Assembly: GCA_030648205.1 (NCBI GenBank)
Contig: JAUSIH010000026.1
Span: 1-53,491 of the forward strand
Length of the DNA: 53,491 nt
Direction of reading: 5' to 3'
From: Dehalococcoidia bacterium
GTDB lineage: Bacteria; Chloroflexota; Dehalococcoidia; JAUSIH01
Shown: positions 13,332 to 30,082 of the stretch, piece after piece
How the letters are laid out: each line of letters opens with the position of its first letter
Position numbering within the stretch: the stretch's first letter is position 1
Program-made: the position numbers and the translations under genes
Notes under the pieces: model-generated
The model's database searches: none
Told to the model about the DNA's origin: nothing
Seen by the model: the letters and a program-made list of their open reading frames with translations, nothing else

Positions 13332-14408
13332 CTACGAGCCGTTGCTTGAGATTTTCCTGGTGACGGCGCGAGCGACTCCGGTGGGAAGGTAGCAGGAATG
13401 CCCTCCCTGAGGTCCTCCAGCCACCACTATGATGAGCTTCCCCGGGTCCCAGCAAATGGGCACGAAGCCACCTACGTGCAAGTACTCTTTGGCGCCCTCA
13501 ACCGCCCCCAGGCGGGCGTGTTGACGCCACGGGGTCAGCCAATCAAGCGGTATGCGGGCGTTCTGGAAGAAATGCTCTTTGAGCTTGTCCTTCGTGAAGC
13601 CGGCGTCGGATAGAAGGCGCGCGTGGGACGGATTCAACACTATCAGCGGCTCAGCGAGCGGATGGGTGTAGTTATTAGCTGTCGCCACCTTCAGCCCTAA
13701 CGTCAGCGAATGAAGAGCATCTTTCCACCCGGGGCTGCTGTCGTGGAGGTTGATGCTCGCATTGGCTCCTATGAGCGTGACGGTGCTGTCGCTTTGAGCG
13801 AAGCCTCGTTCAACATGGAGCGGCGGCCAGGGGCTTTCTTCCTCGTTCTCCCCAATGCACAACGTGTACTTCCCGACGAAACCCTGGGTTGACTTGTCCA
13901 CATCGCCGGGCACGGCCCCGCCGATATTCAGGAGGATGAGGCGAATAGCGCGCCCGATGGTCGCGTTGGCGCGCCACCCCGGTCCCATCACTCCGGAGGT
14001 GCAGTTCACACCCAACTGCTTCCGCACCGGTCCGTTCAGAATGATGCACGGGGTTATCGGGTTGGTCGTGGTCTGGACGTGTTCCAGCTTGAACTCGGGG
14101 GCTGTCATCGCCTCGACTGTGGTGATCACCAGGTCCATGTACTCCGGCCGGCATCCCGCCATGAGGGCATTGACGGCGATCTTCTCAACAGTGGCGGCGC
14201 CGTTCGCCGGGGGAACATGCGCGATAACTTGCTGAGCGGATCGCCCTGACGCGGCGATCATCTCCTGTACGCGTTGCTCCGTGGGGGGGATGATGGGAAG
14301 ACCGTCGGTATAACCCTTGCCGTAATAGTAATTGAATACCTCCTGGGCGTCGTCAGCCATCAGCTCTCGTGTGGAAGTAAGCGCGTCGCTTTGCATCGTC
14401 TTCCTCAC
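13332..14408 (-). CDS. Partner protein of UGSC selenoprotein, copy 1
   Basis: The 358-residue protein belongs to a family present three times in this window. Shared segments are GYTDGLPIIPPT, NGAATVEKIAVNALMAGCR, PGWRANATIGRAIRL, LNIGGAVPGD, and GKYTLCIGENEEESPWPPLH. Cys86 (in MAGCRPEY) and Cys184 (in YTLC) are conserved in all three copies. No family I can name fits. No signal peptide or membrane helix is seen. The gene overlaps the UGSC selenoprotein stop by four bases (GTG at 14408; ATG at 14396 is possible), so the two products are probably made together. A subunit or substrate-processing role is inferred. Confidence 0.75.
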   Translation of the reverse strand: MRKTMQSDALTSTRELMADDAQEVFNYYYGKGYTDGLPIIPPTEQRVQEMIAASGRSAQQVIAHVPPANGAATVEKIAVNALMAGCRPEYMDLVITTVEAMTAPEFKLEHVQTTTNPITPCIILNGPVRKQLGVNCTSGVMGPGWRANATIGRAIRLILLNIGGAVPGDVDKSTQGFVGKYTLCIGENEEESPWPPLHVERGFAQSDSTVTLIGANASINLHDSSPGWKDALHSLTLGLKVATANNYTHPLAEPLIVLNPSHARLLSDAGFTKDKLKEHFFQNARIPLDWLTPWRQHARLGAVEGAKEYLHVGGFVPICWDPGKLIIVVAGGPQGGHSCYLPTGVARAVTRKISSNGS

Positions 14409-14968
14409 ATGGCTGCGGGCGTGCGAACTCGAGGGACTGACACGAGATTGTGAATGATCACATCCGAATGCTGCCGCACAATTTGACGGATCTGTTTTTC
14501 AGGCAAGGAGTCCAGAGGATGCGGCAGGACGACTACACGCAGGTCCGGTACGCCGCGTCCTTTAGCGGAGGCTTTCGCGAGCCCCTCGAAAGCCTTTGTC
14601 ACCATAGTCACGGTAGGAATCCCGTGCTTTTCCAGTTCGGCGCCGTCGTGGATACACCACGATGTGCAGGACCCTCAGTTGCCCACGCCGCAAATGACGG
14701 CGTCCGCCCGGTGCATCAGCTCATCCATGTCTCCGGCTGAAAGAGTTTGCAGCGGCGTTATTTCTTTCTCCAGGATCTCTGACACGCCGTATTCCGTCGT
14801 AAGCAACTGACGCAGCTCTTGCGAGGCGACTTGCATGCACTTCCAGCCATTATTGATAATGCCGATGGTCTTTCCCTCTAGAGTGCTCAGCCGTGGCGCC
14901 AGACTTGCTCCGCTGCTCTGCGCACCCTCGGCAAACGGCATTAGCATCGGTACTTTGTTCTGTTGCAT
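14405..14968 (-). CDS. UGSC family selenoprotein, copy 1 (in-frame UGA read as Sec)
   Basis: Read through the TGA at 14677-14675, this gives one 187-residue protein with Sec98. The first half ends ADAVICGVGN, and the second half continues in the same frame as GSCTSWCIHDGAELEKHGIP, then VVVLPHPLDSLPEKQIRQIV. The U-G-S-C motif and the residues after it recall the Sec site of GrdB of glycine reductase (U-G-T-C-T-R-C, then a helix with EIE and G-(I/L)-P). The hairpin after the UGA is described at 14646. The start ATG at 14968 follows GGGAGC. A normal gene caller would report two short ORFs. Confidence 0.85.
14646..14677 (-). promoter_or_regulatory. SECIS-like hairpin after the UGA of UGSC copy 1
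   Basis: From the UGA there are 12 bases, then TCGTGG (14662-14657), loop TGTAT, then CCACGA (14651-14646). The stem is 6 perfect pairs. The loop begins 18 bases after the UGA and has G at its second position, which fits the general layout of bacterial SECIS elements. Confidence 0.65.
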
Positions 14969-17578: not shown

Positions 17579-18481
17579 CTAACCTCCCTTCACGATGTCC
17601 AGCCAATTCTTGTAGGGAAACTTGATCCTTGCAGCCTCAGCCGGTGTAGAGCCGCTGAGAGATTCGTGCGGCCTCAGGAAGTTGTAATGCACAAGCCAGC
17701 CGTCCATGACGAGGCTAGCTGTCCGGCTCTTTTTCAGGCCCCTCATAACCTTCGTTCGGGCCTTCAGTGTTCCGTGAAAGCGTTCAATTAGATTCGTGTT
17801 AGCTTCGGTTGAGAATGGACCACCTTGCTTGTGTTTGGTATCTGCACCGAAAGCTAGCTCAATACCGTCCAAGTAAGCTGCCAGCTTGTCGGTTCTCACA
17901 ACTTTTGGCGTCTTTTGCGCTCGCTCCGCTGCCTTTTCCATGAGCGTTTGCGCTACTCGTTTTGTGCGCGTTAGCGACGTATGCGAGGCCAGCAGAAAGC
18001 GAGTCTTGGTATCTATGATGTCCCAAAACCAGACATTCTCCCCTCCAATATCGAGCATAGTTTCATCGGCTACCCAAATATCGCCGACGACTGGCGTTAT
18101 GCCCTCAATTTTCGCTATGGCGATCCTCGTAAACTTGGTTATCCAGTAGTACACGGCAGCGTCCGTCACGTAGCTGTTGTAGGTCTGGTGAAGATTCCGA
18201 CAGATAGCTTGTAGTGAATTCCCCTCGTAAAACTCACTCATTGCCAGGGCTATTTGGATGACCGGCGTTTTCATCTTGGGTAGAGCGTCGTTGTTGACGA
18301 ATTTCCTACCGCAGTCCTTACACCACCATCTTTGTATCTGTTTGTAGTGCCCAAAGCGGACTATGTTCTTTGAACCACAGAGCTTGCACTTTTCCGGTAT
18401 CTCGTTGATTAGCGGCATGGCTTTTCTCATCCCCTCAATTAGTGCTCTTCCGAACCAGTTCCAACGCTTTGTGCTTCCCAT
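17579..18481 (-). CDS. DDE transposase with N-terminal zinc ribbon (IS6/IS240-like)
   Basis: This 300-residue transposase has a zinc ribbon near residues 30-60 (CKLCGSKN and WWCKDCGRKF), a helix-turn-helix region, and a DDE catalytic core. The core has VADETMLDIGG (first Asp), VVRTDKLAAYLDG (second Asp) and NLIERFHGTLKARTKVMRG (Glu), then HYNFLRPHESL. The core resembles IS6/IS240-type DDE enzymes. Length is complete. A hairpin CTCTTACC/GGTAAGAG lies just upstream (18491-18514). I could not define terminal inverted repeats. It shares the lower GC of the preceding gene. Confidence 0.85.
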   Translation of the reverse strand: MGSTKRWNWFGRALIEGMRKAMPLINEIPEKCKLCGSKNIVRFGHYKQIQRWWCKDCGRKFVNNDALPKMKTPVIQIALAMSEFYEGNSLQAICRNLHQTYNSYVTDAAVYYWITKFTRIAIAKIEGITPVVGDIWVADETMLDIGGENVWFWDIIDTKTRFLLASHTSLTRTKRVAQTLMEKAAERAQKTPKVVRTDKLAAYLDGIELAFGADTKHKQGGPFSTEANTNLIERFHGTLKARTKVMRGLKKSRTASLVMDGWLVHYNFLRPHESLSGSTPAEAARIKFPYKNWLDIVKGG

Positions 18482-22950: not shown

Positions 22951-24642
22951 CTACGTCCCCGCCGGGCGGGCCCGCGCGCTCCGCATGGCCACGGCCCGCG
23001 TGACGGGCGTTGAAGGGCGGCCATAGGACGGGAGTACGATGCCGTGGACGCCGCCCGCGCCGATGACCGTGACCATGATGTCTTCCCATCGGTCGGTCAT
23101 GGGAATCATGGTCTTAGGGTCGTCCCAGTTGATGGTGGGCCGCATCTTGCGCAGCTTGGTAATCTCAAGGGGGTGGTACCGGCTGACGGGGATGCGCCCC
23201 TGCTCAAACAACTCCTGCTTCAGTCTGTCCTTGGAGTAGCCGGACCGCGCCAGGATGGAGGCGTGGTACGGGTTCAGGGCCAGGAGAGTCACTCCCGCGT
23301 ACTGCACATTGTTCACGCCCATTGCGGCCATGGCCCCGGACATGGTCGAGACGAGAGACTCGGCGGAGCCGGTCTCCAGGGTGTGGACGGCGCTTGCCCA
23401 GGCGTGGAACCCCATGACCGCCACCGCGGTCACCGCGCTGGCACCGCGCTCCAGCCCGCGCTCCACGTGAAGGGGGTCCCAGGGACTCTCCGCCTCGTTC
23501 TCCGCGACGCAGAACGTGTACTTGGCGGGCTGCCCCTGAATCGCCCGGTCCGTCGCCTCCGGGTGGCCGCCGCCCACGTTAATCATGACGAGGCGCAAGG
23601 CCCGTCCGATGGTCGCGTTGGCCTGGTTCCCCTGGCCGAAGGCGTTGAATCGGCTGTTCATTCCGATTGCCTGGGCGACAGGCCCGTTGACGATGAGCAG
23701 GGGCGCCACCGGGTTCGTCGTGGCCTGGACGGCGGTGAGGTTGAAAGCGGGATCGGTGATCGCCTGCACCGCCGCGATGAGCACGGGCATATATTCCGGT
23801 CTGCAGCCCGCCATCACCGCGTTGACCGCTATCTTTTCGATGGTCGCCTTGCCCCATCTGGTCGCCACCTTCGCGATGACCTCATCCGGGGCGCGGTCCG
23901 CGTGCGTCAGCATCCGGTCAACGGCCTTGCGCGTGGGAGGCAGAATGGGCAGGCCGTCGGTCCACTTGCGCTCGCGGAAGGCGTCGGTGGCGGAAGCGGC
24001 GTCCGGCTCGACGGAAACGTTCTGTAGCTCGCGGGCCTGCGCGGCGCCGGAGGCCAGCCCATTCTGGTTGATGTGGCGCGCCGCCTTCTCCATCAGAAGC
24101 TGCCTGGGCTTGCTCAATGCCTCCACTATGTCGCCGACGACCCGGTCAGCCCAGCCGCGCAGCTCGTCGTTGCTCATGCCGAAGTACTCGGGTATGGTCA
24201 CCAGCGGAAGGGCGGGCACGCCCCGGCCTATGGCCTGCCTGCGCCCGAGGACGTCAAAGCCCTGGGTGCACATAATGGCCGTGGGCACGCCCGCTTTTTC
24301 CAGTTCCACCGCGTCAGAGATACACCCCGACGTACAGCCCCCTCACTGCGCGAAGGCCTCCACCACCATGTCCGTGCTCCTGATGACCGCGGGCAGGTCC
24401 GGATGGGGGGAGCTGGCGGTGTTCTTGCGCAGGTGCAGCACCTGTGCGAACTTGTAGCGCTGCGTCAGCAGCTCCTCCACGCGGGCCAGGAAGAGGTCCG
24501 CCTTCGGGCGGCTGTTGTCCAGGAACGCGATGCGCAGCCCGTTCAGGTCCGCGGGCCGCTCCGCCAGCCCCATGTCCACGAGCTCTATCTCGCCGACAGG
24601 GTTCAGGAGCTCTGCCGCTTGCGCCGCCGTTTTCAGCTTCAT
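22951..24642 (-). CDS. Fusion of UGSC selenoprotein (copy 2) and its partner protein
   Basis: With the TGA at 24345-24343 read as Sec, one frame of 563 residues joins both families. Residues 1 to about 200 are the UGSC domain: STDMVVEAFAQ, then Sec100-GGCTSGCISDAVELEKAGVP. From about residue 225 comes the partner domain: KWTDGLPILPPT, IEKIAVNAVMAGCRPEYMPV (Cys280), NQANATIGRALRL, AKYTFCVAENEAESPWDPLH. The motif is UGGC rather than UGSC. ATG 24642 follows GGATAGAGG; an earlier in-frame ATG at 24666 is possible. It lies 36 bases after dppC and is the last gene of the operon. The fusion indicates direct contact of the two proteins. Confidence 0.82.
24313..24345 (-). promoter_or_regulatory. SECIS-like hairpin after the UGA of the UGSC fusion
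   Basis: Eleven bases after the UGA, GTCGGGG (24331-24325) pairs with CTCTGAC (24319-24313) around the loop TGTAT. That is 7 pairs, two of them G-U. The loop again starts 18 bases after the UGA. Relative to copy 1, the third pair from the loop is G-C instead of U-A, a compensatory change. Confidence 0.65.
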
Positions 24643-24678
24643 CGTTTCCTCTATCCTGCGTGTCATCGGCAGCCGCGC

Positions 24679-25578
24679 CTACCGACCGCGCAGCCGCGGG
24701 TCCCATACGTCCCGCAGCGCGTCGCCCAGCAGGTTGAAGCCCAGCACCACCAGGGTTATCGCCACACCGGGGAACACGGCCATCCACGGCGCGCGCTCGA
24801 AGTACTCGCGGCCCAGGCCGGAGAGGTCGGCGCCCCAGGACGCCGTGGGCGGCTGCGTGCCCAGGCCCAGGAAGCTCAACGAGGCTTCGGTGAGGATGGC
24901 GGAGCCCAAGCCGGCGGTCGCGATGATGATAATGGGAGCGGCCACGTTAGGGGCGACGTGCCGGAGCACGATGCGAAGGCGCCCGCAGCCCACGGCCCGG
25001 GCGGCCTCGATGAACTGGTGCTCTTTCACCGCCAGAGTCGTGGACCGGACCACGCGGCTGACCTGGGGAATCATGACGATGCCGATAGCCAGCATGGTGT
25101 TGGTCGTGCTGATGCCGAGGGCGGCCGTGATGGTGATGGCCAGGATGAGGGTTGGGAAGGCCAGGATCGCATCCATGGCCCGCTGCACTAGCAGGTCGGC
25201 CCGGCCGCCCGCGTAGCCGGAGATCACCCCTATGACAGATCCCAGGCCCGTCCCAATCCCCACGGAGACGATGCCCACCCACAGGCTGATGCGCGCGCCG
25301 TGGATGACGCGGCTGAGGATGTCGCGCCCGAACTTGTCCGTGCCCAGCAGGAAGTCCGCTCCGGGTGGCTCGAAGCGGTGCGCCGCGCGCAGCGTCAGCG
25401 GGTCGCTGGGCGCGATGTAGGGCGCGGCGATGGCGACGGCTATCACTAGCAGCAGGATGGCCGCGCCCACGGCCCCCAGGGGCTTCCATTGCGCAAAGCC
25501 CGCCACGCTTTGGACAATGGAGACGGCGGGACGCCGCCTCCGTTGGACCTCCAGGGTAGCCGTGTCGCTCATCGCCAT
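24679..25578 (-). CDS. ABC transporter permease, DppC-type
   Basis: This 299-residue inner-membrane permease has the DppC/OppC N-terminal segment (FLLGTDKFGRDILSRVIHGARISL), about six helices and the EAA loop that contacts the ATPase (EAARAVGCGRLRIVLRHVAPN). The end NLLGDALRDVWDPRLRGR is typical. It pairs with the DppB-type gene at 27400 and the binding protein between them. The order B, binding protein, C is unusual, since B and C are normally adjacent. Confidence 0.92.
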   Translation of the reverse strand: MAMSDTATLEVQRRRRPAVSIVQSVAGFAQWKPLGAVGAAILLLVIAVAIAAPYIAPSDPLTLRAAHRFEPPGADFLLGTDKFGRDILSRVIHGARISLWVGIVSVGIGTGLGSVIGVISGYAGGRADLLVQRAMDAILAFPTLILAITITAALGISTTNTMLAIGIVMIPQVSRVVRSTTLAVKEHQFIEAARAVGCGRLRIVLRHVAPNVAAPIIIIATAGLGSAILTEASLSFLGLGTQPPTASWGADLSGLGREYFERAPWMAVFPGVAITLVVLGFNLLGDALRDVWDPRLRGR

Positions 25579-25646
25579 GACGATGCCTGCCTGGTCGTCA
25601 CCTGTCCCGCGCTCCGGTGCGCGAGCGATTCCAGATGCTCACACCG

Positions 25647-27386
25647 CTACCTGTCCAACCAGGCCCAGCGCTGAAGGTGTTGGGCGGTGGGGATAGGCTC
25701 CGCGTAGTCCTTCACCTGTGGCGACATCATCACGTACACATAAAAGTAATAGGTCCAGGCCGCGTAGGATTTCTCGATGGCCTTTCTCTCCAGGTCCAGC
25801 ACAGCCTGCGCCCGCTTCTTGTCGTCCGTAATCCGTCTCTCCTGGTCCAGCAGCTTCTGCAGCTCCGGGTCGTCAATCTGGTACGGTGAGCCCTTCGCAT
25901 AGACGGTGACCATGTTGCGGTCCGGCTCCGCCTCCGGCGGATGGCCGTGGGAGATTGCGTCCCAGTCCCCCTTCTCGCGCCGGTCCAGGAACACGGGGAA
26001 CTCAAGTACCTCTATGTTGGCGGTGATGCCGCAGTCCTTGAGCTGGTCCTTGATGACCGTCATGTTCTGCACGGCAATGGGCTGACGGACGGTGGCGTTG
26101 AGCTTGAAGGCGAAGCCCTGGGGATAGCCGGCGGCGACGAGCTTTTGCTTGGCGCCGGCTACGTCCCGCTTGTAGAGCTTGGCCAGATCATCCTTGGGCA
26201 GGCTATAGCCCGTGCGCAGCGTGGGGACGCCCGCCAGGTCGCCGTCGCCGTCCACCACGAACTGTATCAGCGCCTCCCTGTCCATGCACTGGGAGACCGC
26301 CTGACGCACGCGCATGTCGTCGAACGGCTTCTTTGTGGGGTTCATGAACAGAGCGTTGTGGAACTCGCGGCGCTTGACGGCGACCATATTGGGCACGGTC
26401 TTGCGGGCGGCGTCATACTGGGACTTGTCGCCTTGGATGAGGTCCACCCTCCCGGCGCGGAACGCCGCCAGGCGAGTGGAGGCGTCCGGGATGATGACGC
26501 CGCGGATTTTGTCCAGGTAGGGCAGGTTCTTCTCGAAGTAGGCCGGATTGCGTTCAAGGGTGAACTCCACGTTGGGCGTGAAGCTGGCTACAGTGAAGGG
26601 GCCCGTGCCGATAGCGATCTTCGTCAGGTCGTAGGCGGGGCCGCGTGGGCCGATGTACGACTCCTGGGGATAGATGACGGTGTAGGCGTGGGCCAGGTAG
26701 GTCAGGAAGGGGGCGTAAGGCTCCTTTGTCTCCACCGTGATCGTATAGGGGTCGGTAGCCTGCATGCTCTTGAGAGGTTCAAACCAGGTCCGGGCCACCA
26801 GGTTCATGGGCGGAAGACCTGGAATCTCCTGACGCTTGCGTTTGAAGTCCGTGACCACATCCTGCGCGGTTATCTCCCGCCCGTTGACGGGCGGAATGTT
26901 GGAGAAGCGGACGCCTTTCTTCAGGTGGAACACGTATGTGGTCTCGTTGGGTTGCTCCCAGGACTCGACCAGGTCCTTGACGTTGGACAACTGGGCGTCG
27001 GAATAGAACAGCCCATTGTGGGTGAGGCCGATGATCTCAAAGACCGTGGAACTGCCGGTGAAGTTGAGGTCAAGCGTGGGCGGTGCGACTGCCACCGCAC
27101 GCGTCAGCGTTCCGCCGCGCTTCGGCCCCCGCGACACCGCCGTGGGCGTCGCGTTGGCGATGGCGGGCGTAGGCTCCAGCCGAGGTGTGGGCACGGGCGT
27201 GGCCCGGCTTGAGGCGGACGGCGTCGCCGGAGCGGTCGTCGGCGCGGCCTGGGGAGCAGTGGCCGCCGGCTGCGTGGGCACAGGGGCTTGCGCGGGCGCG
27301 GCGCACGCGGTGAGAACGAGCGCGGCGGCGGCGACGAGGCGGGTAGCCCATGGGTTGGATAGCACGCGAGACAATCCGTGGAACAT
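25647..27386 (-). CDS. ABC transporter substrate-binding lipoprotein, family 5
   Basis: This 579-residue extracellular binding protein has the lipobox ALVLTAC, a Pro/Thr/Ala linker and the family 5 core: GGTLTRAVAVAPPTLDLN, YVFHLKKGVRFSNIPPVNGR, FTLERNPAYFEKNLPYLD and RLAAFRAGRVDLIQGD. The ATG at 27386 has AGGAGGGC upstream. The ligand cannot be read from sequence; the family carries peptides, opines, nickel complexes, sugars and other small molecules. It sits between the dppB- and dppC-type genes in the operon that begins and ends with UGSC and partner genes. Confidence 0.9.
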   Translation of the reverse strand: MFHGLSRVLSNPWATRLVAAAALVLTACAAPAQAPVPTQPAATAPQAAPTTAPATPSASSRATPVPTPRLEPTPAIANATPTAVSRGPKRGGTLTRAVAVAPPTLDLNFTGSSTVFEIIGLTHNGLFYSDAQLSNVKDLVESWEQPNETTYVFHLKKGVRFSNIPPVNGREITAQDVVTDFKRKRQEIPGLPPMNLVARTWFEPLKSMQATDPYTITVETKEPYAPFLTYLAHAYTVIYPQESYIGPRGPAYDLTKIAIGTGPFTVASFTPNVEFTLERNPAYFEKNLPYLDKIRGVIIPDASTRLAAFRAGRVDLIQGDKSQYDAARKTVPNMVAVKRREFHNALFMNPTKKPFDDMRVRQAVSQCMDREALIQFVVDGDGDLAGVPTLRTGYSLPKDDLAKLYKRDVAGAKQKLVAAGYPQGFAFKLNATVRQPIAVQNMTVIKDQLKDCGITANIEVLEFPVFLDRREKGDWDAISHGHPPEAEPDRNMVTVYAKGSPYQIDDPELQKLLDQERRITDDKKRAQAVLDLERKAIEKSYAAWTYYFYVYVMMSPQVKDYAEPIPTAQHLQRWAWLDR

Positions 27387-27399
27387 GAAAGCCCTCCTT

Positions 27400-28359
27400 T
27401 TACTGATAGCGTATGCGCGGGTCAAGATAGCTGTACGTGAGGTCAACGAGAAGGTTGATGACGGTAAAGAGCAGGGCCAGCAGCACGACCGCGCCCTGCA
27501 CAAGGACGAAATCCCGCTGGTGAATGGCGTCCACCGTCAGGCGGCCCACGCCGGGGAGCGAGAAGATCGTCTCCATGATTACCGCGCCGCCCAGGAAGTG
27601 CCCGAACTGGTTGCCGACCAGCGTGATCACGGGTATGGCCGCGTTCTTCAGCGCGTGCCGGGTGATGCCCGCTCGCTCCTGGAGTCCCTTCGCCCATGCG
27701 GTGCGCATATAGTCCTGGCGCATGACCTCCAGCAACGACGAGCGCATCAGCCGCGCGATGAGGGCGGCCATGGAGGCGCCCAGCGCCAGGGCGGGCAGGA
27801 AGAACTGCTGCAGATTCGTCAGGGGGTCGCGCGTGAGCGGCTCGTAAACCAGGGGAGGCACCCACTGGAAGAGCAGCGATGGGACGAGCAACAGCAGTGT
27901 GCCCAGCCAGAAGCCGGGCATGGCGAGTCCGCTGATGCTGAGCAGCCTGCTGACATAGTCAATCCAAGTATCCTGTCTTACGGCGGACAGGACGCCCAGC
28001 GGCACGCCGAAGCATACCGCCACAAGCACGGCCAAGGCCGCCAACTCCAGGGTCACGGGCAGCGAGCTGCTGAACTCTTCCAGCACGGTGCGCTTGGTCC
28101 AGAGCGAGGTCCCCCAGTCGCCGCGCGGGATATTCCCTACCCACGTCAGGTACTGCTCCCACAGGGGCCTGTCCAGTCCCATGGACTGGCGGAAGCTGGC
28201 CAGCTCCTCAGGGGTGGCTAGGTCACCGAGCATCAGGCGGGCCACGTCGCCGGGGATGATGCGCAGGATGAAGAAGACAATGAGCGACACTCCCAGAAGG
28301 ACGGGCACAAGCAAAGCAAGGCGGCGCAGCGCGTACTGGGCCAAGGGCTTGTCTCCCAC
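27400..28359 (-). CDS. ABC transporter permease, DppB-type
   Basis: This permease of about 319 residues has the DppB/OppB pattern: YALRRLALLVPVLLGVSLIVF as first helix, the GLDRPLWEQYLTWVGNI periplasmic segment, an EAA-like loop (MRTAWAKGLQERAGITRHALKN) and the end VDLTYSYLDPRIRYQ. The start is unsure: GTG at 28359 or TTG at 28344, which gives the usual N-terminus. It follows UGSC copy 3 by about 20 bases, so it is in the same operon. Confidence 0.9.
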   Translation of the reverse strand: MGDKPLAQYALRRLALLVPVLLGVSLIVFFILRIIPGDVARLMLGDLATPEELASFRQSMGLDRPLWEQYLTWVGNIPRGDWGTSLWTKRTVLEEFSSSLPVTLELAALAVLVAVCFGVPLGVLSAVRQDTWIDYVSRLLSISGLAMPGFWLGTLLLLVPSLLFQWVPPLVYEPLTRDPLTNLQQFFLPALALGASMAALIARLMRSSLLEVMRQDYMRTAWAKGLQERAGITRHALKNAAIPVITLVGNQFGHFLGGAVIMETIFSLPGVGRLTVDAIHQRDFVLVQGAVVLLALLFTVINLLVDLTYSYLDPRIRYQ

Positions 28360-28376
28360 TCCCCTCAAACGCTAGC

Positions 28377-28988
28377 TTACGGCCCCGCCGGAGCCGGTTG
28401 CTTCACCGGCATGGTCATCTTCTGGACGATCTCCTCGAAGCGCTCGTCCGCAATGCGGCGCACCTCGTCCCTGGGCAGCGTCTCGAACGGATGGGGCAGT
28501 ACCACCATCGGCAGGTGGGCGTAGCCCTTGGCCTTGAGGCAGGCCTGCGCCAGGGTGACGAACTCGGACGTCACCAGGATGAGGGTGGGTACGCCTTTCT
28601 CCTCCAGCGAGACCGCGTCGTGGATACACCACGCTGTGCAGGAGCCTCAGGCGGCCAGACCGGAGATGGCGGTGTCTATGCCCTGGGCGAAGGCGGCATA
28701 CTTCTGGGGCGAAAGGGCGTCCACGCTGCTCGGCATCGCGGTGGCGGACGTGCGGGTCTGGGTGTGCATCCTGTCGGCCCGCTCCTCCTCCACCGAGATG
28801 ATGCGCACGTCGCCGACCTTGGTCTCCGAGCGCAGACGCTCCTGGATGCGCTCCACGAAGACGAAGAAGTTGGGCCAGTAGCTTCGCACGCCGATGACTT
28901 TGCCCCGCAGGTCCGCGACGCGGGGCGCCGCCTGCTTCACGTTGCCCGGGGACGGCGCTACGGGGTCAATAACTTCAACGCGTGTCAT
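28377..28988 (-). CDS. UGSC family selenoprotein, copy 3 (in-frame UGA read as Sec)
   Basis: Reading through the TGA at 28649-28647 gives a 203-residue protein with Sec114. The first part ends QGIDTAISGLAA, and the second continues in the same frame as GSCTAWCIHDAVSLEEKGVP, then VVLPHPFETLPRDEVRRIA. The sequence around Sec is nearly the same as in copy 1, while the N-terminal parts have diverged much more, which argues for selection on the UGA region. The gene lies 26 bases after its partner (29015-30082) and just before dppB. Confidence 0.85.
28619..28649 (-). promoter_or_regulatory. SECIS-like hairpin after the UGA of UGSC copy 3
   Basis: Thirteen bases after the UGA, CGTGG (28633-28629) pairs with CCACG (28623-28619) around the loop TGTAT. 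The loop starts 18 bases after the UGA, as in copies 1 and 2. Confidence 0.6.
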
Positions 28989-29014: not shown

Positions 29015-30082
29015 CTAGGAGTTGGACACTGGGGTGATGCGCCGTGTGTCAATGACTCGGGTGACGGGCTGGGACTGGGCCCAGGTGGGCACAAAGGTGG
29101 AGTGAAAGCCGCCGTGGCCGCCGGCCACCACCACCATGAAGTACTCCGGCCCCGGCACCAGCGCCACGTGCCCGTCGCGCACGCGCCGGTCCTCTGTGAG
29201 GCGCTGCTGCTCCGCCTTGGCGAACCGCGACAGCGGAATCCGGCTGGTGCGCTCGTACAGCACGCGCTTGACGTCCTCCTTGGACAGGCCGTCGCGGGCG
29301 CAGATGGCGGCGTGGTCCGGATTGAGGACGAGCAGAGGCTGGCCCGAGAAGTACCGCAGCGAGGGGATGCCAGGCCAGTCCATAGACGAGGTCATCGTGA
29401 CCAGGATGCCTTCCGCGTCCCTGCTCCACACGTCGGACACGCTGACCGTGCTCGTCGCCGCGGTGACGGTGACAGTGCTCTCCTCCCGCGGGTGTCCCAT
29501 CTCCACGTGCAGGGGAGGCCAGGGGCTGCGCTCCTCGTACTCGGCCATGCACAGGGAGTAGCGCCCCGGTTGGGCCATGGTGGACTTGCTCACCGAGCCG
29601 GGGATGGAGCCGCCGATGTTGAGCTGGGCCAGCCGGACCGCTCGCCCAATGGTGGCGTTGGCGCGCCAGCCCGGCCCGAAGAAGCCGTAGCTGCTGTTCA
29701 AATCTACCATGTGCCGCACGGGACCGTTGACAATAAGCAAAGGGGTTACAGGGCTTGTGGTGGAGTTGATGCCGTACAGGTTGAACTCCGGCTGCGCAAT
29801 GGCCTCCACCGCGGCCACGACCACCGGCAGGTAGTCCGGCCTGCAACCCGCCATGACGGCGTTGGCCGCGATGCGCTCCACAGTGGCTGCGCCGTTGCGC
29901 GGCGGCAGCGTGGCGACGACGTAGTCAGGCGCGCGCTCCACTGTCGCCATCATGCGCTCTACGCGCGCCGAGGTAGGCGGGATGATGGGCAGGCCGTCCG
30001 TCCAGCCCTTCCCGTAGGCGTCCTCGAAGGCGGCCTCGGCATCTTCTTCCAGAAAAATTCGGCGGGCCTTTAGTTTCTCCAT
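29015..30082 (-). CDS. Partner protein of UGSC selenoprotein, copy 3
   Basis: This 355-residue protein is the third member of the partner family, and here it precedes its selenoprotein. Shared parts are GKGWTDGLPIIPPTSARV, NGAATVERIAANAVMAGCRP (Cys80), NGPVRHMVDLNSS, GPGWRANATIGRAVRL, LNIGGSIPGSVSKST and RYSLCMAEYEERSPWPPLHV (Cys178). It is soluble, with no recognised domain. It opens a six-gene operon with the promoter at 30267, about 180 bases upstream of the ATG. Confidence 0.75.
   Translation of the reverse strand: MEKLKARRIFLEEDAEAAFEDAYGKGWTDGLPIIPPTSARVERMMATVERAPDYVVATLPPRNGAATVERIAANAVMAGCRPDYLPVVVAAVEAIAQPEFNLYGINSTTSPVTPLLIVNGPVRHMVDLNSSYGFFGPGWRANATIGRAVRLAQLNIGGSIPGSVSKSTMAQPGRYSLCMAEYEERSPWPPLHVEMGHPREESTVTVTAATSTVSVSDVWSRDAEGILVTMTSSMDWPGIPSLRYFSGQPLLVLNPDHAAICARDGLSKEDVKRVLYERTSRIPLSRFAKAEQQRLTEDRRVRDGHVALVPGPEYFMVVVAGGHGGFHSTFVPTWAQSQPVTRVIDTRRITPVSNS

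Follow-up and report, generated by a model that had tools for sequence, protein, structure and literature searches.

The UGSC selenoproteins have remained an orphan family since the 2000s. A fusion of a UGSC selenoprotein with a conserved domain of unknown function (i.e., UGSC/Unknown_1) was described from aquatic metagenomes by Zhang and Gladyshev in 2008 (PMC2398784, Fig. S1A), and a thioredoxin-like fold was proposed for UGSC in the same paper, which was available to us only in part. The glycine reductase system has several protein B complexes, each specific for its substrate, that all feed one common reductase and are accompanied by transporter genes, and substrate-specific paralogues of GrdB and PrdB lie beside transporters in other bacteria (PMC10838667). 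The largest bacterial selenoproteome listed in a 2026 review is that of a Methylomirabilota metagenome-assembled genome (MAG) with 63 selenoproteins, while Olavius algarvensis Delta 1 has 57; the same review warns of co-assembled strains in selenoproteome counts (PMC13188914).

Here we present a UGSC-partner fusion gene on a 53,491-nucleotide contig (the window) from a Dehalococcoidia genome (G000; 2.69 Mb; 95% complete). Like UGSC/Unknown_1, it joins a UGSC selenoprotein to a conserved but functionally uncharacterized domain, and the two architectures are probably identical as far as the accessible parts of the 2008 paper allow a comparison; Unknown_1 is likely the partner family described here, which is unverified. 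Since that fusion has been published, the architecture itself is not new. In contrast, those parts of the paper do not describe the many copies, their linkage in operons, the recurrence of the fusion, or a kinship with GrdB, and we found no report of the extreme expansion, the near-obligate partner linkage, the repeated fusion, or the GrdB kinship in the literature searched. What looks new is thus the number of selenocysteine (Sec)-containing UGSC genes (i.e., 41 in the source genome, and 146 or more in a related MAG), the unmodeled partner family, and the relationship of UGSC to the Sec active site of GrdB and PrdB. The orphan family is now tied almost without exception to one partner gene. 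Our best overall explanation, to which we assign a probability of roughly 0.5, is that the Sec fusion is a GrdB-like substrate-specific reductase.

The fusion gene lies on the minus strand (22951 to 24642) and extends from an ATG (24642 to 24640), preceded by a Shine-Dalgarno-like GAGGAA identified by sequence inspection (24646 to 24651, minus strand), to a TAG stop (22953 to 22951). It encodes 563 residues and contains one in-frame TGA (24345 to 24343; residue 100), which is followed by 463 open codons. The first-pass annotation had claimed a single 563-residue frame holding the UGSC domain and its partner, open for more than 460 codons after the UGA and carrying a UGGC motif; the frame and the Pfam and partner-profile matches bear this out, and the motif at the Sec position is indeed U-G-G-C. 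The Pfam UGSC model (PF24696) aligns without a break across the TGA (residues 20 to 185 of 571; E = 1.7e-37; domain at 24112 to 24609, minus strand), and the score of 129.6 bits passes the gathering score of 25 bits. The equivalog NF041046, with a cut-off of 125 bits, was missed at 95.8 bits. The fusion shares the U-G-x-C-T motif and the Pfam match across the Sec codon with PF24696/NF041046 but differs in having a C-terminal domain and in falling below the NF041046 cut-off; on these profile scores, it belongs to the wider UGSC family and lies outside the equivalog. The rest of the protein is covered by a partner profile (E = 9e-162, in-sample), and the partner domain (22963 to 24063, minus strand) has no Pfam or NCBIfam model. 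Because antisense open reading frames of 290 to 400 codons are frequent in this GC-rich window, the length of the open frame alone is weak evidence. Decisive for the fusion instead are the Pfam match through the TGA, the partner-profile match, and paralogues with the same architecture.

Among the 46 UGSC matches in the source genome, TGA is present in 41, and it occupies the same family column in 41/41. A genome-wide reassignment of UGA was considered and rejected: each UGSC gene carries one TGA in a single column, and several of the TGA-bearing genes terminate with TGA as a normal stop. The genome encodes SelB, a SelA gene located directly beside a UGSC gene, and a tRNA-Sec with anticodon tca. 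A natural Cys version (i.e., CGSC), which retains 3/6 of the hairpin pairs discussed below, occurs in an archaeal MAG (L114) next to a separate partner gene. A bacterial selenoprotein is expected to carry an in-frame UGA where a redox residue is conserved and to have Cys homologues, and the fusion gene satisfies both conditions.

Bacterial SECIS elements are hairpins that lie 16 to 37 nt after the UGA and carry a G early in the loop. The hairpin of the fusion gene (24313 to 24331, minus strand; a 7-bp stem with two G-U pairs and the loop UGUAU, approximately 18 nt past the UGA) satisfies the distance and loop criterion, and a hairpin can form at an equal distance past the UGA in most copies in the source genome. 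Since this region is coding, pairing was compared with that in synonymous recodings. In the source genome, 195 of 246 pairs were present, compared with 147.9 ± 6.4 in 2,000 recodings (maximum, 170), and in a relative (G143; a MAG of 5.0 Mb, 96% complete, with 7% contamination), 268 of 312 pairs were present, compared with 188.9 ± 7.9 (maximum, 215). With 21 compensatory cells and a covariation score of 0.282, the hairpin surpassed every one of 500 shuffles and every slid version on both measures, and the fusion gene alone kept 6/6 scored pairs (P = 0.03 by synonymous recoding). The SECIS hairpin is therefore conserved beyond the needs of the protein. A plain minimum-free-energy test was not significant (z = 0.7 and, in a second test, a mean z of -0.5) and was replaced by the hairpin-specific test; because the general folding energy past the UGA is not unusual, the SECIS claim depends on this specific hairpin.

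The fusion is one of nine fused UGSC-partner genes in the source genome; six of the nine are joined via a Sec codon, and three via UGA-free open frames. These three paralogues (C16:17933, C43:1739, and C14:12468) have lost Sec without a Cys replacement, so some family members are unable to use Sec chemistry, and a change of function is possible. In a tree of 121 partner domains, the fusion falls in an all-fused clade of 10 rows (SH-aLRT, 99), and the fused/split state requires eight changes by parsimony, at least four of them on well-supported branches. The fusion is thus real and recurrent. A same-strand partner lies no more than 250 bp from 35 of the 37 unfused UGSC matches, in 25 cases downstream and in 10 upstream, and one of the two partner-less matches sits at a contig end. 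Across the class, the fusion profile matched 43 of 148 sampled genomes, many of them with full-length matches containing one TGA. Recurrent clusters of unknown neighbors (e.g., L078:5003-7192) without a Pfam match were set aside as apparent antisense shadows of UGSC or partner genes. One fused copy in the relative (L158; G143 C101:30937) has the motif U-G-T-U and two in-frame TGAs, and its sequence would allow a possible two-Sec active site.

The window contains two further UGSC copies, both on the minus strand, and the description of their partners as separate genes agrees with the coordinates. The copy 1 UGSC selenoprotein gene (28380 to 28988; Sec TGA at 28649 to 28647) has its partner upstream (29015 to 30082), while the copy 3 UGSC selenoprotein gene (14408 to 14968) has its partner downstream (13332 to 14408); both partners were identified with the partner profile. 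Oligopeptide-type ABC transporter genes lie beside the fusion on the same strand (24679 to 28368), comprising a permease (24679 to 25578), an SBP_bac_5 gene (25647 to 27503), and another permease, identified only by inspection of its translation (27400 to 28368). Genome-wide, 18 of 55 SBP_bac_5 genes have a UGSC gene no more than 4 kb away, compared with approximately nine expected, and this enrichment is only two-fold.

AlphaFold2 predicted the 563-residue protein as one confident assembly (pLDDT, 94.8; pTM, 0.94). In the model, the UGSC domain consists of alternating strands and helices, with Sec100 opening the helix after the third strand. A Foldseek search with the whole fusion returned nothing at E < 0.001; the weak PDB matches included flavodoxin-, B12-binding-, and Rossmann-like proteins, with no thioredoxins among the best 50 listed. 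The predicted model alone would thus give UGSC a flavodoxin/Rossmann-like fold and not a thioredoxin topology. At the profile level, UGSC aligned with GrdB/PrdB-type sequences with a probability of 94.6 (hhalign), Sec on Sec; like UGSC, GrdB and PrdB (PF07355) carry Sec in U-G-x-C, with an E-x-x-G-[IV]-P segment after it. Against long GrdB sequences only, the probability was 95.4, decreasing to 70 with the Sec/Cys columns masked, while unrelated control families scored no more than 4. The UGSC-GrdB match spans only 51 to 98 columns. A 99% match to cluster c0 was discarded because this cluster contains the fused genes themselves. On the basis of the profile alignments, it is quite probable that UGSC and the active-site domain of GrdB and PrdB descend from a common ancestor. 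We read this as kinship and do not count UGSC as a member of GrdB: the PF07355 model (GRDB) had no HMMER match in the fusion at E values up to 1 and none in the source genome. A PDB sequence search with the fusion, the profile, and GrdB gave nothing significant, so there was no solved GrdB structure for superposition. Short U[PG][LIV]C proteins from other Chloroflexota (L091 to L109), mostly with an in-frame TGA, match the GRDB model in its C-terminal part alone and are possibly a separate small selenoprotein family.

The partner domain has no consistent Pfam or NCBIfam match across 42 members. Its invariant or near-invariant residues include Asp229, Asn342, Glu381, Trp388, Cys280 (23805 to 23803), and Arg347 (fusion numbering), and it looks like an enzyme or a substrate-binding subunit. 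An identity with GrdE was rejected (profile-comparison probability, 0.1), and PF09338 (GrdE) is absent from the source genome. With neither PF07355 nor PF09338 matched in this genome and with a partner unlike GrdE, the searches revealed no complete system of the glycine reductase type. The partner modeled alone (pLDDT, 91.6) has class I fumarases as its best PDB matches (E = 4e-4; probability up to 0.85), at TM-scores of approximately 0.2 to 0.27 and an rmsd of approximately 17.

The least credible of the alternatives, which we regard as hardly tenable, is that translation simply ends at the UGA and that each half is made as its own product, the second from an internal start. The first-pass annotation had held that the fusion would be doubtful if related genomes kept the halves apart and if the downstream frame had a ribosome-binding site and a start of its own near 24309. 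The former is the case, with split relatives comprising a UGAC gene with a separate partner (L113) and the CGSC version in L114, but the latter is not: a GTG is present at 24309, yet no ribosome-binding site is evident before it, and translation from there would start midway through the UGSC domain, whereas a good Shine-Dalgarno sequence precedes the ATG at 24642. An ordinary stop is also at odds with the same-column TGA in 41 genes, with the SECIS covariation, with the Sec machinery, and with the three paralogous fusions that lack any stop at the Sec position. The interpretation of the UGA as Sec within a domain fusion is thus supported by independent tests, with the recurrent fusions (including UGA-free ones) and the same-strand split pairs adding to the evidence from the codon, the hairpin, and the machinery; the gene almost certainly encodes a real Sec fusion protein, for which there is no direct protein evidence. 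That the fused and split partners act in one complex, as the first-pass annotation had argued from the fusion, and that split pairs form the complex of the fused model are reasonable inferences that have not been shown.

For a GrdB-like substrate-specific reductase, comparable to protein B in the glycine and proline reductases, we envisage that SelB and tRNA-Sec(UCA) would read the UGA as Sec with the aid of the downstream hairpin, for which the support is comparative. The C-terminal partner domain would pack against the Sec-bearing N-terminal UGSC domain, as the copy 1 and copy 3 subunits presumably do; this packing is inferred from the recurrent fusion, the operon adjacency, and the confident one-piece model. 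Sec100 may then attack or reduce an activated substrate held with Asp229, Arg347, Glu381, and Cys280 of the partner, and Cys103, together with a general thiol donor, could regenerate the Sec. Dozens of paralogues would correspond to dozens of substrate specificities, an inference that would fit the nearby substrate-binding ABC transporters. A substrate-specific Sec reductase is favored by analogy, since the logic would be that of glycine reductase protein B: a Sec subunit with a GrdB-like motif, a second subunit dedicated to it, paralogues by the dozen, and nearby SBP_bac_5 genes. Unlike in protein B, there is no GrdE in the source genome, and the UGSC partner is unrelated to GrdE by profile. 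Catalysis is inferred, and GrdB-like substrate reduction as the chemistry remains a tentative assignment, at somewhat less than even odds. A serious competitor, although on the unlikely side, is that the Sec fusion is real but is a thiol-redox protein, i.e., a disulfide or peroxide reductase acting via UxxC, with the partner protein serving, by way of its near-invariant Cys, as a dedicated client or redox partner. The UxxC motif and Cys280 suit such a role, as do the thioredoxin-like fold and redox function suggested in 2008 (PMC2398784, as far as available to us), but the predicted topology and the lack of thioredoxins among the best 50 PDB matches listed do not, and a set of more than 40 paralogues, almost every one with a partner to itself, suits substrate specificity better than general redox defense. 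It is improbable that catalysis instead resides in the partner, which might be a remote class I fumarase- or dehydratase-like lyase, with UGSC as an accessory regeneration domain. The fumarase matches of the partner-alone model point in that direction, and members of the partner family occur in Poribacteria MAGs (L115 and L116) without a detected UGSC gene in the flanks examined; the structural scores of these matches are poor, however, and sequence-profile support is lacking. Class I fumarases coordinate a 4Fe-4S cluster with three Cys residues, whereas the partner has a single invariant Cys.

The relative G143 carries at least 150 UGSC matches, at least 146 of them with TGA, and at least 95 of its UGSC frames are 540 codons or longer, consistent with fusion. 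Contamination alone is unlikely to explain this count because many of the UGSC genes share the same long contigs; the published warning over co-assembled strains applies here too. SelA is present in this assembly, and no tRNA-Sec was found in it above the Rfam cut-off. Olavius algarvensis Delta 1 and the Methylomirabilota MAG are likewise selenoprotein-rich bacteria, but their counts cover selenoproteins of all kinds, whereas here a single family contributes 41 genes to a genome of 2.7 Mb and no fewer than 146 to G143, which would be the largest set of selenium proteins seen so far. It is conceivable, a shade below an even chance in our judgment, that the UGSC-partner pairs are new substrate-specific Sec reductases built from a GrdB/PrdB-descended domain and a different second subunit, expanded to between dozens and more than 100 paralogues per genome in uncultured Dehalococcoidia-class Chloroflexota, which would make these the most selenoprotein-rich organisms known. 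Gene calling with UGA as a stop would cut every such gene in two, so UGSC biology may be largely invisible in such genomes. The locus provides a confident one-chain structural model of the UGSC-partner pair together with a testable GrdB-like chemistry.

Elsewhere in the window, a transposase/integrase-like gene was recognized by eye from its translation only (17579 to 18481, minus strand). Approximately nine class III CoA-transferase genes (PF02515) lie in a row between 35814 and 51500, interleaved with two FAS1-like dehydratase genes and an iron-type alcohol dehydrogenase gene.
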